From Actinomyces sp. Marseille-P3109 (lineage in GTDB: Bacteria > Actinomycetota > Actinomycetes > Actinomycetales > Actinomycetaceae), in contig NZ_OOHN01000008.1 of the NCBI RefSeq assembly GCF_900323545.1, positions 1,045,144-1,109,143 of the forward strand: a stretch of DNA of 64,000 nucleotides, in the 5' to 3' direction. Positions 3,556 to 39,082 of this stretch are shown here, piece after piece. Within the stretch, counting starts at the first letter, position 1, and the number at the start of each line of letters is the position of its first letter. The translations under genes and the position numbers were made by a program. The notes under the pieces were generated by a model. The model did not search any database, was not told where the DNA came from, and was given only the letters and a program-made list of their open reading frames with translations.

Positions 3556-5712
3556 TCACCACAAACGGGTGGGATCCATCTCAACTCGCACCGGTTCCTC
3601 CCGCCGGGCCGACCGGTCACGCAGTCTTACCCCGAGCATGTTCGCAAGCGCTCGGCCACGTGTCAGCGGAGCGCGCACCAGTGCCCTGGCCCCGCCAGGG
3701 GCCACCTGACCGTGAACCGGTGGTGGCGCCACCGGTCCCAGCACCTCAAAACCATCTGCCTCGGCCTGAGCCAGGAGAGACTCCACACCACGCACCGGTC
3801 CATCCAGGCGTGCCACCCGCCACGCCGGCGGCAGATGCAGTTCAGCCCTCTCGATCAGCTCCCTGCGGGCGAATCCCGCGTGATCCCATCTCACCAGTGC
3901 CTGTGCCACCACCGGATCCGGTCTTCCCAGAAGAATGACGCGTGCCGACGGCGCCGCCAGCACCGCGGCATTCGTCCACTGTCGCAGTGCCTCACCGGCA
4001 GCTCCCAGATCGGGCCGTGAGGATAGGACGCCGCCGTCCAGCAGCAGCACAGCCCGGTATCCTCCCTCGGCCACCGGTTCAGCCCCGGGTGTGGATACGA
4101 CGAGACGCGGGGAGCCGTCCACCTCGTCCACGACACCGTGGGCCTCCCGGGCCCCCGAGACCACCACGGGGATACCGGGAAAGGCTCGTCCGAGCTCCTC
4201 CCCCGTGCGCGTGGAGCCAACCGCCACCATCCTCAGGGCGTGGCCACCGCACTCCGGGCAGGTCCACTGCCCCACCGACCGAGCGCACCATCGGCAGGTC
4301 GTGCGGCCCTGGCGGTCCATCGACAACGGCCCCCCGCAGAACGAGCAGTGGGCGGCAGCACGGCAGCGCGCACAGGCCACCAGTGGCGCGTAGCCGGAAC
4401 GCGGGACCTGGATGAGGACCGGTCCCTCCTGGAGAGCGTGCCGCAGCGCGCGGTGCGCCAGCGATGGGATCCGGGCCGCCCCGGAGGCGCCCTCCCGGTC
4501 CAGCTCAGCCGGTCCCGGCACCTCGGTGCGAGGCACCGCACTGCGCACCATCTGCCGCTCAGCCATCAGGTCCTGGCACCAGCCCTGCTCCACCAGTGAC
4601 TGGGTCTCCACGGAACGGCAGAACCCACCGATGAGCAGGCCGGCGCCCTCAAGAGTGGATCGCAGTGCCAGCACCGTGCGCGTATGGGTGTAAGGAGCGT
4701 GGGGCTCGGCCAACCGATTGTCCGCATCGTCCCAGATGACCGCCAGGCCCAGACGTCGCACCGGGGCGAAGGCTGCCGCCCGGGTCCCTATCACCACCCG
4801 GGCACGTCCAAGCAGCAGAGCCAGGAAGGCCCGATAGCGTCGGGCCGGACCGTGCTCGGCCGAGAGCACGACGACCGGCTCCTCTCCCAGCTCCTGGCGA
4901 AGCCTGCCTGCCAGGCCCTCAGCCTGCTCCGTCGTCGCCACCACGATGACCGCTCCCCGGGAGCTCGCCAACGTGGCCTGCACCGCACGAGCCAGGCACA
5001 CCTGCCACGGCTCGATCACGGCCCCCTGCTTGTTGTCGTCACGACCATCGCTCCTGGACCGCGACGCGCCGGGAGACCTACCGCGTGCCGGCAGCGCGCG
5101 CCAGGCCGCCCTTGGGGCTTCGCCGTCCACCAGCCGGGCCAGGAAGCTCTCCCCTCCGTCATAGTGCTGCCAGCCGCACTCGGACGTAGGAGGATTCCAG
5201 GTGACCAGGTCCTGCGGGGCCTTGCCCCGCTCGGACTTCTCAGTGGTGGCGTGCCTGGCGGGAAGCGCCAGACGAACGACGTCGGAGCGTGTCCCGGCGC
5301 TGCGAGCGGCGACGGCCTCGATGAGCCGGCGAGAGCTCTCCGGCAGGACCTGGAGATCCGAGACCACGCGGCGCAGCGCTGAGAGCCGACCGATGTGCGT
5401 CGTCGTAGTTCCCCGCTCCCAGATCCACCCCCGCATCTCCTGCTCGCCGAAGCGGACGATCACACGGGTCCCGGGACGAGCCTCCTGCGCCATCGCCACA
5501 GGGACCAGGTAGTCGAAGGTACGGTCGAGGTGCGGTACGGGAGAGTCCAGAAGAACTCTGGCAACAGGGTCGGTGACACCTGCGACCGTTACCGTGCGCT
5601 CGCCGGGCTCAGGCGGGTCCAGCAGCTCACCCTGCTTGTTCACCTCGGAACGACGCGTGAGTCCGGTCGGCTCACCGAGGATGGGAGCACCGTCGTCGTA
5701 CCCGGTTGCCAT
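3556..5712 (-). CDS. priA: PriA-like primosomal protein without helicase motifs
   Basis: Replication-restart factor family. The N-terminal DNA-binding domain (VARVLLDSPVPHLDRTFDYLVP) and C-terminal PriA fold are present. A zinc-binding block at about residues 446-487 has eight Cys in CxxC-type pairs (CARC, CSFC, CRWC, CPEC). The Walker A GxGKT is missing; the corresponding stretch reads SSRGAVIVVATTE, and the DEAH position is WDDADN. Loss of the ATPase site is known for actinobacterial PriA, so it probably acts as a structural loader. AGAGG four bases before the ATG supports the start. It is last in the coaBC-metK-priA run, 38 bases after metK. Confidence 0.9.
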   Translation of the reverse strand: MATGYDDGAPILGEPTGLTRRSEVNKQGELLDPPEPGERTVTVAGVTDPVARVLLDSPVPHLDRTFDYLVPVAMAQEARPGTRVIVRFGEQEMRGWIWERGTTTTHIGRLSALRRVVSDLQVLPESSRRLIEAVAARSAGTRSDVVRLALPARHATTEKSERGKAPQDLVTWNPPTSECGWQHYDGGESFLARLVDGEAPRAAWRALPARGRSPGASRSRSDGRDDNKQGAVIEPWQVCLARAVQATLASSRGAVIVVATTEQAEGLAGRLRQELGEEPVVVLSAEHGPARRYRAFLALLLGRARVVIGTRAAAFAPVRRLGLAVIWDDADNRLAEPHAPYTHTRTVLALRSTLEGAGLLIGGFCRSVETQSLVEQGWCQDLMAERQMVRSAVPRTEVPGPAELDREGASGAARIPSLAHRALRHALQEGPVLIQVPRSGYAPLVACARCRAAAHCSFCGGPLSMDRQGRTTCRWCARSVGQWTCPECGGHALRMVAVGSTRTGEELGRAFPGIPVVVSGAREAHGVVDEVDGSPRLVVSTPGAEPVAEGGYRAVLLLDGGVLSSRPDLGAAGEALRQWTNAAVLAAPSARVILLGRPDPVVAQALVRWDHAGFARRELIERAELHLPPAWRVARLDGPVRGVESLLAQAEADGFEVLGPVAPPPVHGQVAPGGARALVRAPLTRGRALANMLGVRLRDRSARREEPVRVEMDPTRLW

Positions 5713-37538: not shown

Positions 37539-38198
37539 GGGCCGAATGCTACAGGAGCGGCGGCAGCACCCGGGGATCGTCGAAGCCTGCGAATAGGGCC
37601 GAGAACACGGAGGAAAAACATGGTGCTCAAGGGCGCGCCTGCAGAGAGCCGAGTCCTAGTGTGGTGGTTGTCCTGTTCGAGTACGTCTCTGTGGCTGGGA
37701 TGGGCTCAGAGGTGATGGTGCGTTGTGTGGAGAGGGAGTGATGGTGCTGGGGCGTGCGTTGCTCGTGCGTTGCTGGTGGGTGGCTGATCGGTTCTGGTGG
37801 TAGCGGTCCTGGCCGCCTGCCTGGGCCGGGAGAGCAGGAGGAAGAAGAACAACGGCTCAGCGGCATCCTGCGGCGCGGGATCGGGTTCTGCCGGGCGACG
37901 GCGACGCCACCACCCTGACGCTGGTGTGGCCCGATACCGGACAGGACACCGTCACTCTCGACCTTGAAACCTCCAAGCGCCTTACCCGCCCCAACACCCC
38001 CTCAGCCTCACCGACATTCCCGTCAAAGAGTGAGTGAAGTCACTTTGGGTCAATCTCGGGTCAACCGCAGCGCCTTCTCTCAGCGGCTGCGGTGCAGCGT
38101 CCTAGCCGGTTGCCGAACTCGATGATGAATGGGGATGAAACCGCTCCTGGCCAGCGGACTCACCCCATACCTGGCTGCACAACGGGCCGACTGAAGCC
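37539..38198. other. Gene-free stretch with debris upstream of arsR
   Basis: No intact gene. It contains a perfect 11-bp tandem repeat (CGTGCGTTGCT twice at 37753-37774) and, near its end, a short coding remnant (see next entry). Several short frames with high GC are out of phase with one another, as expected of a decayed gene. Confidence 0.5.
37864..38037 (+). pseudogene. 3' remnant of an unidentified gene
   Basis: A frame open to the TGA at 38035-38037 reads as plausible protein (VLPGDGDATTLTLVWPDTG then TVTLDLETSKRLTRP) with good third-position GC, but no start or upstream continuation exists. It looks like the last 55-60 codons of a lost gene. Family not recognised. Confidence 0.3.
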
Positions 38199-38226
38199 TT
38201 GACATCAAGTTACTTTGATATAAAAT
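38199..38226 (+). promoter_or_regulatory. Strong sigma-70-type promoter of arsR-metallothionein operon
   Basis: TTGACA (38199-38204), 16-base spacer, TAAAAT (38221-38226). Expected transcription start is about 38233-38234, that is at the arsR ATG, so the mRNA is probably leaderless. Confidence 0.75.
38204..38219. promoter_or_regulatory. ArsR/SmtB-type operator between -35 and -10
   Basis: ATCAA-gttact-TTGAT, an inverted repeat filling the spacer of the promoter. Position is ideal for repression by the downstream ArsR protein; the half-site style resembles SmtB/CzrA operators. Confidence 0.65.
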
Positions 38227-38233
38227 CTCTTGC

Positions 38234-38563
38234 ATGCGAAAGGTCGCAACTCCACCGGAGGCCCCTCTCGGGGACGACTCCGCCGTGGTGCAGATGTTCA
38301 AGGCGCTCGCTCACCCCATGAGGGCAAGCATTGTCTACCGCCTCATCAGCTCACCGGCTGACGTCACCGAGTTGGTGACGTTTCTCGGTGTATCTCAGCC
38401 TCTGGTTTCTCACCACCTGCGGGTCCTGCGCAAGGCCCACCTGGTCGAGTCGGTCCGTGACGGCAGACGCCAGAGCTACTCCCTCATCGACGACCATGTC
38501 GCATCGATCTTCATCGACACCCTCGAGCACACGAAGGAGCATGACCATGACTGCCACCACTGA
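38234..38563 (+). CDS. ArsR/SmtB-family metal-responsive repressor
   Basis: Winged-helix metal sensor, 109 residues. FKALAHPMRASIVYRLISS is the first helices, VTELVTFLGVSQPLVSHHLRVLRKAHLVES the recognition helix region, and RRQSYSLIDDHVASIFIDTLEH the wing and dimer helix. No CxC in the DNA-binding helix (so not ArsR/CadC alpha3 type); the C-terminal helix has DDH...H and the tail reads HTKEHDHDCHH, favouring an alpha5-type zinc, cobalt or nickel site. No Shine-Dalgarno; promoter spacing suggests a leaderless start. Its last 17 bases overlap the Cys-rich gene, so the two are co-expressed. Confidence 0.92.
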   Translation: MRKVATPPEAPLGDDSAVVQMFKALAHPMRASIVYRLISSPADVTELVTFLGVSQPLVSHHLRVLRKAHLVESVRDGRRQSYSLIDDHVASIFIDTLEHTKEHDHDCHH

Positions 38564-38870
38564 GCACCGCCCCGCGGAGGCCCACCACCACACTCACGGC
38601 CCGAACTGCGGCCACCTCGCCGTCATCCACGGTGACCACGTGGACTACATCCACAACGGCCACGCCCACCACGAGGACAACGGCCACTACGACGAGTGTG
38701 ACACCTGCTCGTGTGAGCACTGCTCGGACTCCTGCGCCGTCTGCGAGTGCGAGGACTGCACCTGTCCGACCTGCAACCACAACACCTGCTCGTGTGAGCA
38801 CTGCTCGGACTCCTGTTCCTCGTGCGCCTGTGAGGACTGCTCCTGCCCCACCTGCACGCACGCCGCCTAG
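38547..38870 (+). CDS. Two-module metallothionein-like His/Cys-rich protein
   Basis: 107 residues, no signal peptide, presumably a cytoplasmic metal chelator. Residues 1-50 hold 13 His (HHHTHGPNCGH, HGDHVDYIHNGHAHH). Residues 51-107 hold 19 Cys: two nearly identical 27-residue modules, Cys at 54, 56, 59, 63, 66, 68, 71, 73, 76 and again 27 later (81-103), plus Cys51; Cys21 brings the total to 20. Each module has TCSCEHCSDSC, xxC, xCEDC, xCPTC. AAGGAG sits seven bases before the ATG at 38547 (one base before ATG 38541). It is cotranscribed with the ArsR repressor and followed by a strong hairpin. The ArsR partner and CxC/CxxC density parallel SmtB-SmtA; metal identity is unknown. Confidence 0.9.
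   Translation: MTATTEHRPAEAHHHTHGPNCGHLAVIHGDHVDYIHNGHAHHEDNGHYDECDTCSCEHCSDSCAVCECEDCTCPTCNHNTCSCEHCSDSCSSCACEDCSCPTCTHAA
38701..38862 (+). repeat. 81-bp in-frame tandem duplication in metallothionein gene
   Basis: Two copies (38701-38781, 38782-38862). The first 34 bases are identical in both copies, starting ACACCTGCTCGTGTGAGCAC; the rest differs mainly by synonymous or conservative changes. Encodes the two Cys modules. Confidence 0.9.
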
Positions 38871-38917
38871 TCGATTCAGTCGTAACCCTGTACGCGCACC
38901 GCTTGCAGCGTACTGCT

Positions 38918-38963
38918 GTGGGGGCCTCCTGCCGGAGGAAGATCTTCGGTAGGAGGCCCCCAC
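38918..38963 (+). terminator. 13-bp perfect hairpin after metallothionein gene
   Basis: GTGGGGGCCTCCT and AGGAGGCCCCCAC, 20-base loop that contains a further CCG/CGG and GAAGATCTTC palindrome. Starts 48 bases after the stop; no T-run. Confidence 0.75.
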
Positions 38964-39082
38964 TGGGGTTCGTGGCGCCGTGATCAGGACGAGCGCAGAC
39001 AGATCGGAGATGAGCGAGTGGAGACTGATGATCGGGTCCGAACAGGTTTGCGCCGATACGCGCTCGCAACGATCATGAGCCC
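38964..39082. other. Upstream region of kinase gene
   Basis: TTGCGC at 39048-39053 and GATCAT at 39071-39076 with 17-base spacing are a weak promoter candidate; it would give a leaderless kinase mRNA, consistent with the absent ribosome binding site. Nothing else seen. Confidence 0.3.

Follow-up and report, generated by a model that had tools for sequence, protein, structure and literature searches.

A predicted zinc-storage metallothionein family in Actinomyces, with ArsR-type or Zur-type control signals in one chromosomal slot

Introduction

To our knowledge, few actinobacterial metallothioneins have been described; MymT of Mycobacterium tuberculosis is short and binds copper. The cyanobacterial protein SmtA is of the Cys9His2 type. 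Among the ArsR-family repressors, the alpha3N (CadC/ArsR) type is marked by a Cys pair in alpha3, in an ELCVC-type motif. The alpha5 site class, according to the available part of the report on AzuR, senses Zn, Cu, Co and Ni (PMC8790569).

Zur, a different zinc sensor, can act in both directions. In Synechococcus WH8102, Zur represses znuABC, with a Zur box over the -10 element, and activates the metallothionein gene bmtA under zinc excess, which the authors call unprecedented; of the two bmtA boxes, one extends over -10 and -35 and one is placed beyond -35, and in the portion of the report at hand the authors see no general rule linking two Zur boxes to activation (PMC9337993). In Streptomyces coelicolor, where the Zur motif is tGaNNatSatNNtCa, with a 7-1-7 layout, zitB is activated by Zur in a zinc-dependent manner with an upstream extension, and its box is placed 8 nt upstream of -35, as stated in the accessible text (PMC5472717).

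Here we analyze an arsR-metallothionein locus in a 64,000-nucleotide stretch of DNA (hereafter, the window) from an oral Actinomyces with a genome of 3.15 Mb; the nearest named row in a tree of Sua5 and AspS proteins is Actinomyces naeslundii (98% identity, 793 columns). The comparisons described below suggest, with a probability that we put at about 0.7, that the metallothionein-like protein (MT) is a zinc-induced cytosolic protein for zinc storage and buffering, the gene being switched on by ArsR release here and by Zur activation in siblings that lack ArsR.

Organization of the arsR-MT locus

The locus consists of two overlapping genes behind a single promoter, with the following features:
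38199..38226, + strand: promoter TTGACA-16-TAAAAT, 11 of 12 consensus bases
38204..38219, + strand: predicted ArsR operator ATCAA-N6-TTGAT, exact, inside the promoter
38234..38563, + strand: ArsR/SmtB-type repressor gene, 109 aa (Pfam, NCBIfam, alpha5 ligands)
38534..38539, + strand: ribosome-binding site AAGGAG, read from the sequence, 7 nt 5' of the ATG at 38547
38547..38870, + strand: metallothionein-like protein gene, 107 aa, 20 Cys, 17 His (ORF, alignment)
38547..38699, + strand: His-rich head, residues 1-51, common to ZnuB C-terminal tails and head-head proteins
38706..38786, + strand: Cys module 1, residues 54-80, 9 Cys (repeat comparison)
38787..38867, + strand: Cys module 2, residues 81-107, 9 Cys (repeat comparison)
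38918..38963, + strand: 20-bp GC-rich hairpin, no T-run (folding)

The promoter is the sole promoter-like match in 38100-39080 (shuffle mean 0.1), and its -10 element ends 7 bp short of the ArsR ATG, which makes a leaderless arsR mRNA probable. The arsR and MT reading frames share 17 bp (38547-38563), and a second in-frame ATG lies at 38541, 1 nt from AAGGAG. Most of this layout, including the 17-base overlap and an operator inside a strong promoter, had been proposed in an initial annotation of the sequence and is borne out. The same annotation had the locus closed by a strong hairpin: the hairpin itself is there (folding of a 76-nt stretch gives -57.2 kcal/mol, with z -7.5), but it is not followed by a T-run and a terminator scan found none, so its closing role is no more than likely. 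In several loci of the naeslundii/oris group, a protein-kinase ORF (PF00069, 39083-40636) separates MT from aspS; most of the other Actinomyces loci compared showed no such ORF at this place.

A putative metallothionein family with duplicated Cys modules

Translation confirms the unusual composition noted at the outset, with 13 His and a single Cys among the first 50 residues and the other 19 Cys in residues 51-107. The tail comprises C51 and two 27-residue modules of nine Cys each, with the pattern CxCxxCxxxCxxCxCxxCxCxxCxH, which are identical in 65 of 81 bp in the window gene; acidic residues number 18 among the 107, compared to one basic residue. The protein thus has, at the sequence level, the features of the functional class: it is small and Cys-rich, with CxC and CxxC arrays and conserved Cys.

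In an alignment of 51 distinct full-length proteins, the window's included (an out-of-frame row, L047, was set aside; in frame, it has F in place of one Cys), all 20 Cys and 12 of the His are invariant in 50 proteins and H7 is kept in 48, and the commonest residue at non-ligand positions has a mean share of about 0.71 (51 rows). Together with dN/dS values of 0-0.28 in nine comparisons with relatives, the invariance of the ligands indicates that MT is a real protein, with selection acting on its ligands. Across species, the non-Cys similarity is 0.50 between first modules and 0.54 between second modules, compared to 0.46 between modules 1 and 2 of the same protein and 0.38 between those of different proteins (31 proteins, with a one-residue register shift in a few). 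Each module thus resembles its own counterparts more than it does its partner, and accordingly, the duplication probably predates the spread across these genera.

The protein matches no Pfam or NCBIfam model, with no Pfam family up to E 10. Membership in the SmtA family was considered and is ruled out, PF02069 having no match to MT or anywhere in its genome. A search of solved structures returned a chance-level match (E 0.15), and the AlphaFold model, built from 16 sequences, is uninformative (pLDDT 51.3, pTM 0.31). No published description of the protein was recognized in the open-access literature, which does not prove its absence from print. The best reading of these comparisons is a new metallothionein family; the initial view of a metallothionein-type protein of unfamiliar architecture, paired with an adjacent ArsR/SmtB-type repressor that has a dedicated operator, holds.

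Phyletic distribution and the His-rich head

Searching with MT yielded 34 proteins at E ≤10 and a match in 34 of 59 genomes (its own and 58 relatives), which in 27 genomes, its own among them, starts no later than residue 3 and reaches residue 106 or 107. Among the 36 relatives in the same genus, 10 have no match, including eight that are at least 90% complete, so the gene is dispensable. A scan with one genome per species produced 34 loci, including ones in Streptoalloteichus, Streptomyces griseocarneus, Aeromicrobium, Mobiluncus and several MAGs. The initial annotation had called for a search for relatives, and the presence of conserved full-length ones in Actinomyces and other genera argues that the architecture is not a chance product. 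In Lactobacillus sp. Sy-1 (L054), the protein found is a His-rich one with two heads in tandem (head-head), so the head is not confined to Actinomycetota. A plasmid home for MT was considered and rejected: four plasmid records match, none of them covering 80%.

In a sample of 394 genomes drawn evenly from the class, 101 match at 1e-6: in the genome analyzed here and 12 others the match runs to residue 106 or 107, in one it runs to residue 80, representing a one-module form (L109, from a genome that is 73% complete), and in the other 87 genomes the best match stops at residue 62 or earlier. Other one-module forms of about 80 aa (P0009, P0011, P0012, P0014, and P0027) come from contigs of up to about 8 kb with the source 'ena', and may reflect collapse of the 81-bp repeat during assembly. 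No stand-alone Cys tail without a head was seen among six matches; the head alone is present in proteins of similar size in nine matches.

Twenty-two head-only loci (L091-L096 and L110-L125) were read individually. In 11 (L093, L111-L116, L119-L121, L124), the product is a head-head protein; two (L095, L096) encode a single head, and L118 is unclear. Of the 11 head-head proteins, 9 have a first head ending in DEC and 10 have a second head ending in DEH or DDH. The head of MT also ends in DEC, and MT therefore looks like a head-head protein in which the second head was replaced by Cys modules. ArsR control of the head-only proteins was considered and rejected, ArsR being found in the fetched stretch of just two of the 22 (L093, L096). 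Across the 35 loci L091-L125, no Zur box with ≤2 mismatches (scored as below) lies 330 bp or less from the head, a scan that is informative on promoters for the 14 small head proteins alone, given that the 330-bp stretch falls inside the gene in permease fusions and mostly inside ArsR in L097-L108.

In the remaining eight head-only loci (L091, L092, L094, L110, L117, L122, L123, L125), the head forms the C-terminal tail of a permease (the ABC-3 domain was identified by Pfam for L117 and P0036, and the other fusions were judged by eye). Arguably, this placement favors a different role, in which MT would be a Zur-repressed zinc reserve or chaperone that, in the ArsR-less species and perhaps originally, is made under starvation and passes zinc to or from ZnuABC; the head may work in this manner when fused to ZnuB. 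We return to this alternative with the evidence on Zur.

The ArsR regulator and its predicted operator

The repressor belongs to the ArsR family (PF01022, 2.2e-12; NF033788, HTH_metalloreg, 86.1 bits against a cut-off of 55), with 8qkf and then NmtR (2lkp) as the nearest solved sequences. Residues D86, H88, H99, and E102 are invariant in 30 of 30 aligned ArsR rows (29 distinct; the window's own sequence is present twice, and the L043 and L044 copies lie about 2 kb downstream of MT) and line up with CadC. No Cys pair of the alpha3N kind is present in the alpha3 region of these 30 rows, which have 1-3 Cys per translated stretch; the single Cys of the window ArsR, C107, is in the C-terminal tail, HDHDCHH, and the tail is His-rich in 24 of the 30 rows. 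The same four residues correspond to those that the available text gives as alpha5 ligands of AzuR and SmtB (PMC8790569). By its predicted ligands, the window ArsR is thus classified with the alpha5 (SmtB/CzrA) type and not with the alpha3N (CadC/ArsR) type.

This classification bears on which metal is involved. Given the His-rich tail of ArsR, the position of NmtR as the second-best PDB match, and the ability of alpha5 sites to sense Co and Ni, the locus could be an NmtR-like nickel/cobalt sensor and sink; we consider this very unlikely, the relatives being associated with Zur boxes, a znu operon and a ZnuB fusion (see below), and the tail of MT being thiolate-rich, which is uncommon for a Ni/Co site.

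Cys-rich modules would, on the other hand, bind soft metals in vitro, which speaks for a protein that detoxifies several metals (Cd, Cu, Ag, Hg) and handles Ni/Co through a separate His domain; so does the fact that AzuR, the alpha5 regulator of a cyanobacterial metallothionein, is freed from DNA by several metals in the part of the report available (PMC8790569). This also strikes us as unlikely, albeit less so than the Ni/Co sink: ArsR has no alpha3N Cys ligands, the contexts of the relatives are zinc-type, and the window neighbors identified by Pfam are housekeeping genes, with no soft-metal resistance genes among them. The initial assignment of the His half to zinc, nickel or cobalt and of the Cys half to soft metals hence gives way, in view of an ArsR with alpha5 ligands alone and of the zinc contexts (znu operon, ZnuB fusion, Zur boxes), to zinc storage as the best reading, which rests on the ligand class, the Zur boxes, the znu linkage and the occurrence of the head as a ZnuB tail.

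Besides the exact operator, ATCAA-N6-TTGAT occurs in the window at two places with one mismatch (893 and 1345); three or more places were reached by none of 100 window shuffles. Genome-wide, the extended site, GACATCAA-N6-TTGATATAAA, is found exactly once and, with three mismatches, at one further place; because it is near-unique, ArsR probably serves the arsR-MT operon alone. In 10 close-ortholog promoters (nine different sequences, the window included), the 10 bp on either side of the 6-bp spacer are invariant and the spacer varies. Among the 21 ArsR loci, the predicted operator is exact in 10, has one or two mismatches in four, and three or four mismatches in seven.

ArsR and Zur signals in the same chromosomal slot

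An arsR gene is located directly upstream of MT in 21 of the 34 species-level loci (one of the 34, L047, is on a contig that starts at the gene, so that an upstream ArsR would not be visible) and in 11 of 13 class-sample loci (L097-L109). Within Actinomyces, the two kinds of loci occupy the same place: a Sua5/YrdC gene (identified by Pfam on the window's copy) is upstream of MT in 15 of 16 ArsR-type and 11 of 11 ArsR-less loci, and aspS is downstream in 16 of 16 and 10 of 11, respectively, L027 being cut by a contig end and L029 having no aspS within 6 kb. None of 10 ArsR-less Actinomyces genomes, searched in full, encodes an ArsR relative at 1e-10 (A. israelii, L029, is not among the 10). On the Sua5 and AspS tree (27 rows), switching between the ArsR-less and ArsR-type states takes three changes (bootstrap 2-3), of which the well-supported branches force one only. 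The description of the locus as a self-contained cassette therefore holds in the clade of the window and fails as a general statement, given the siblings with Zur boxes in place of ArsR.

We scored Zur boxes as mismatches to TGANAATSATTNTCA, a motif taken from S. coelicolor, within 300 bp of MT. Boxes with ≤2 mismatches are present in 9 of the 11 distinct ArsR-less Actinomyces MT promoters, compared to none of 453 other windows in the same loci, and, among 26 distinct ArsR-type loci, in L039 only. For each of the nine loci, no more than one of 2000 shuffles equaled the sum of the two best boxes. The other two promoters, L033 and L034, have weak boxes, with three mismatches; the best site was reached by 134 and 75 of 2000 shuffles and the two-box sum by 39 and 19, respectively. 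Four loci outside Actinomyces without an upstream ArsR (L043, L044, L046, L049) have no box with ≤2 mismatches; in L043, genes for ArsR and a FUR-family protein lie about 2 kb downstream of MT. Across 36 genomes, among them that of the window, the exact sequence TGAAAATGATTTTCA is present once, 202 bp upstream of an MT gene. A further place with a single mismatch, away from MT, is found in another Actinomyces genome (G002:C4:103856-103870; L056, L064).

The possibility that the boxes serve the divergent Sua5 gene rather than MT appears unlikely: L028, L031 and L041 have the same Sua5 together with ArsR and no box with ≤2 mismatches (scanned on L041 itself and, for L028 and L031, on L011 and L017, where their genes are located).

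In L039 (Actinomycetaceae bacterium TAE3-ERU4), a Zur box with one mismatch (5637-5651) is located directly upstream of an ArsR-operator-like repeat, also with one mismatch. This locus is a possible double-controlled intermediate.

Predicted direction of Zur control

Most of the ArsR-less promoters, 10 of 11, have a proximal Zur box with ≤3 mismatches (≤2 in six) 5' of a -35-like element, as judged by eye for -35 and -10; the distance is 1-2 nt, the -35-like element is TTTG in 8 of 11, and TA(T/C)nnT follows about 18 bp further. L033 has no recognizable proximal box (five mismatches). By the same visual criterion, all 10 Zur-type genomes compared, as well as the genome analyzed here, have the znuA box (≤2 mismatches) downstream of a -35 that is TTGAC-like, and this box mostly abuts the start codon. 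By analogy with zitB, the box geometry at MT suggests that Zur would activate the gene at high zinc in ArsR-less Actinomyces. Such activation would, on this analogy, give the same output as ArsR release by zinc.

In the genome analyzed here, the znu locus (L075, G000:C8:779500-786000) is a run of znuA, an ATPase gene, an ABC-3 permease gene and a FUR-family gene. Its ATPase ORF has a His-rich tail at the end, and its Zur box is directly adjacent to the start of znuA.

Two loci speak for the starvation-induced zinc reserve introduced above. In L045 (Actinomycetota MAG bin48; L104 is the same protein), MT sits after the genes for ZnuA, the ATPase and ABC-3 and before a FUR-family gene; a perfect Zur box lies 2532 bp upstream of MT, at the operon start, so expression is predicted under zinc starvation and not excess. 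In L019, a further Zur box sits between the -35- and -10-like elements, over the core promoter, a repressor-like place. We nevertheless regard this role as rather unlikely, though not so unlikely as multi-metal detoxification, because in 10 of 11 Actinomyces loci the proximal box is 5' of the -35-like element, unlike at znuA, and the same-slot orthologs carry a zinc-sensor-type ArsR repressor, which implies the opposite response.

Discussion

Zinc-induced storage and buffering, the reading that we prefer, would work as follows. At low free zinc, an ArsR dimer would occupy the operator over the promoter and keep arsR-MT off; rising zinc would fill the alpha5 site (D86, H88, H99', E102'), and ArsR would leave the DNA. 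MT would then be made and would take up excess zinc through two Cys9 clusters, each with one conserved His, and through the head, which may be a faster, weaker zinc-loading site. In the siblings without ArsR, zinc-loaded Zur just upstream of -35 would activate the same gene, so that zinc would still be the switch. The two proteins, the conservation of their ligands, the operator footprint, the Zur boxes with their positions and the synteny are read from sequence; metal binding, stoichiometry, direction of regulation and physiological role are what we infer from these comparisons.

To the few known actinobacterial metallothioneins, MT adds a family without a Pfam or NCBIfam profile, from an oral genus, with a zinc assignment for which there are several kinds of evidence. 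We find the regulator swap, which is a prediction, the most interesting feature: one orthologous MT gene, in one slot of one genus, would have been rewired between an ArsR repressor and a Zur activator, with opposite logic, combined with a second, independent origin of a Zur-activated metallothionein outside cyanobacteria and a new family in which the second half of a head-head protein was replaced by two Cys9 clusters. We see the odds of this combination as evenly balanced. If true, the swap would be a natural experiment in which a storage gene keeps its input-output relation while sensor and logic change, and Zur activation of a metallothionein would not be unique to a marine cyanobacterium, the case described in the available text (PMC9337993).

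Comparison with known systems

MymT and MT are both actinobacterial; MymT differs in being short and copper-binding, and at the sequence level the comparison was by the Pfam and NCBIfam scans. The SmtB-SmtA pair of Synechococcus, as is predicted for the locus described here, combines an alpha5 ArsR repressor with a small Cys-rich zinc protein with nine Cys plus His per unit; the differences are that MT does not match PF02069 and has repeated 27-residue modules and a His head, and that arsR and MT overlap in one operon. In the AzuR-NmtA system of Anabaena, an alpha5 SmtB-type repressor controls a metallothionein, as is predicted here; as far as the accessible text describes it, the regulator does not adjoin the metallothionein and the operator is a 12-2-12 repeat (PMC8790569).

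For the ArsR-less loci, zitB offers a parallel to the apparent placement of the Zur box upstream of -35, although, in the portion of the report at hand, zitB is an exporter gene (PMC5472717), whereas a predicted storage protein is involved here, the proximal box nearly abuts the -35-like element and the two best boxes are 29-67 bp apart. The closest parallel in regulation is bmtA of Synechococcus WH8102, which also has Zur boxes at a metallothionein promoter, with induction by zinc excess that is shown there and proposed here (PMC9337993). The two were set side by side on promoters: a bmtA box overlaps -10 and -35 (PMC9337993), whereas in most loci here the boxes appear to lie upstream of -35. 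Judging from the available part of that report, bmtA represents one sensor in one species, whereas here two sensors appear to alternate on one orthologous gene (PMC9337993).
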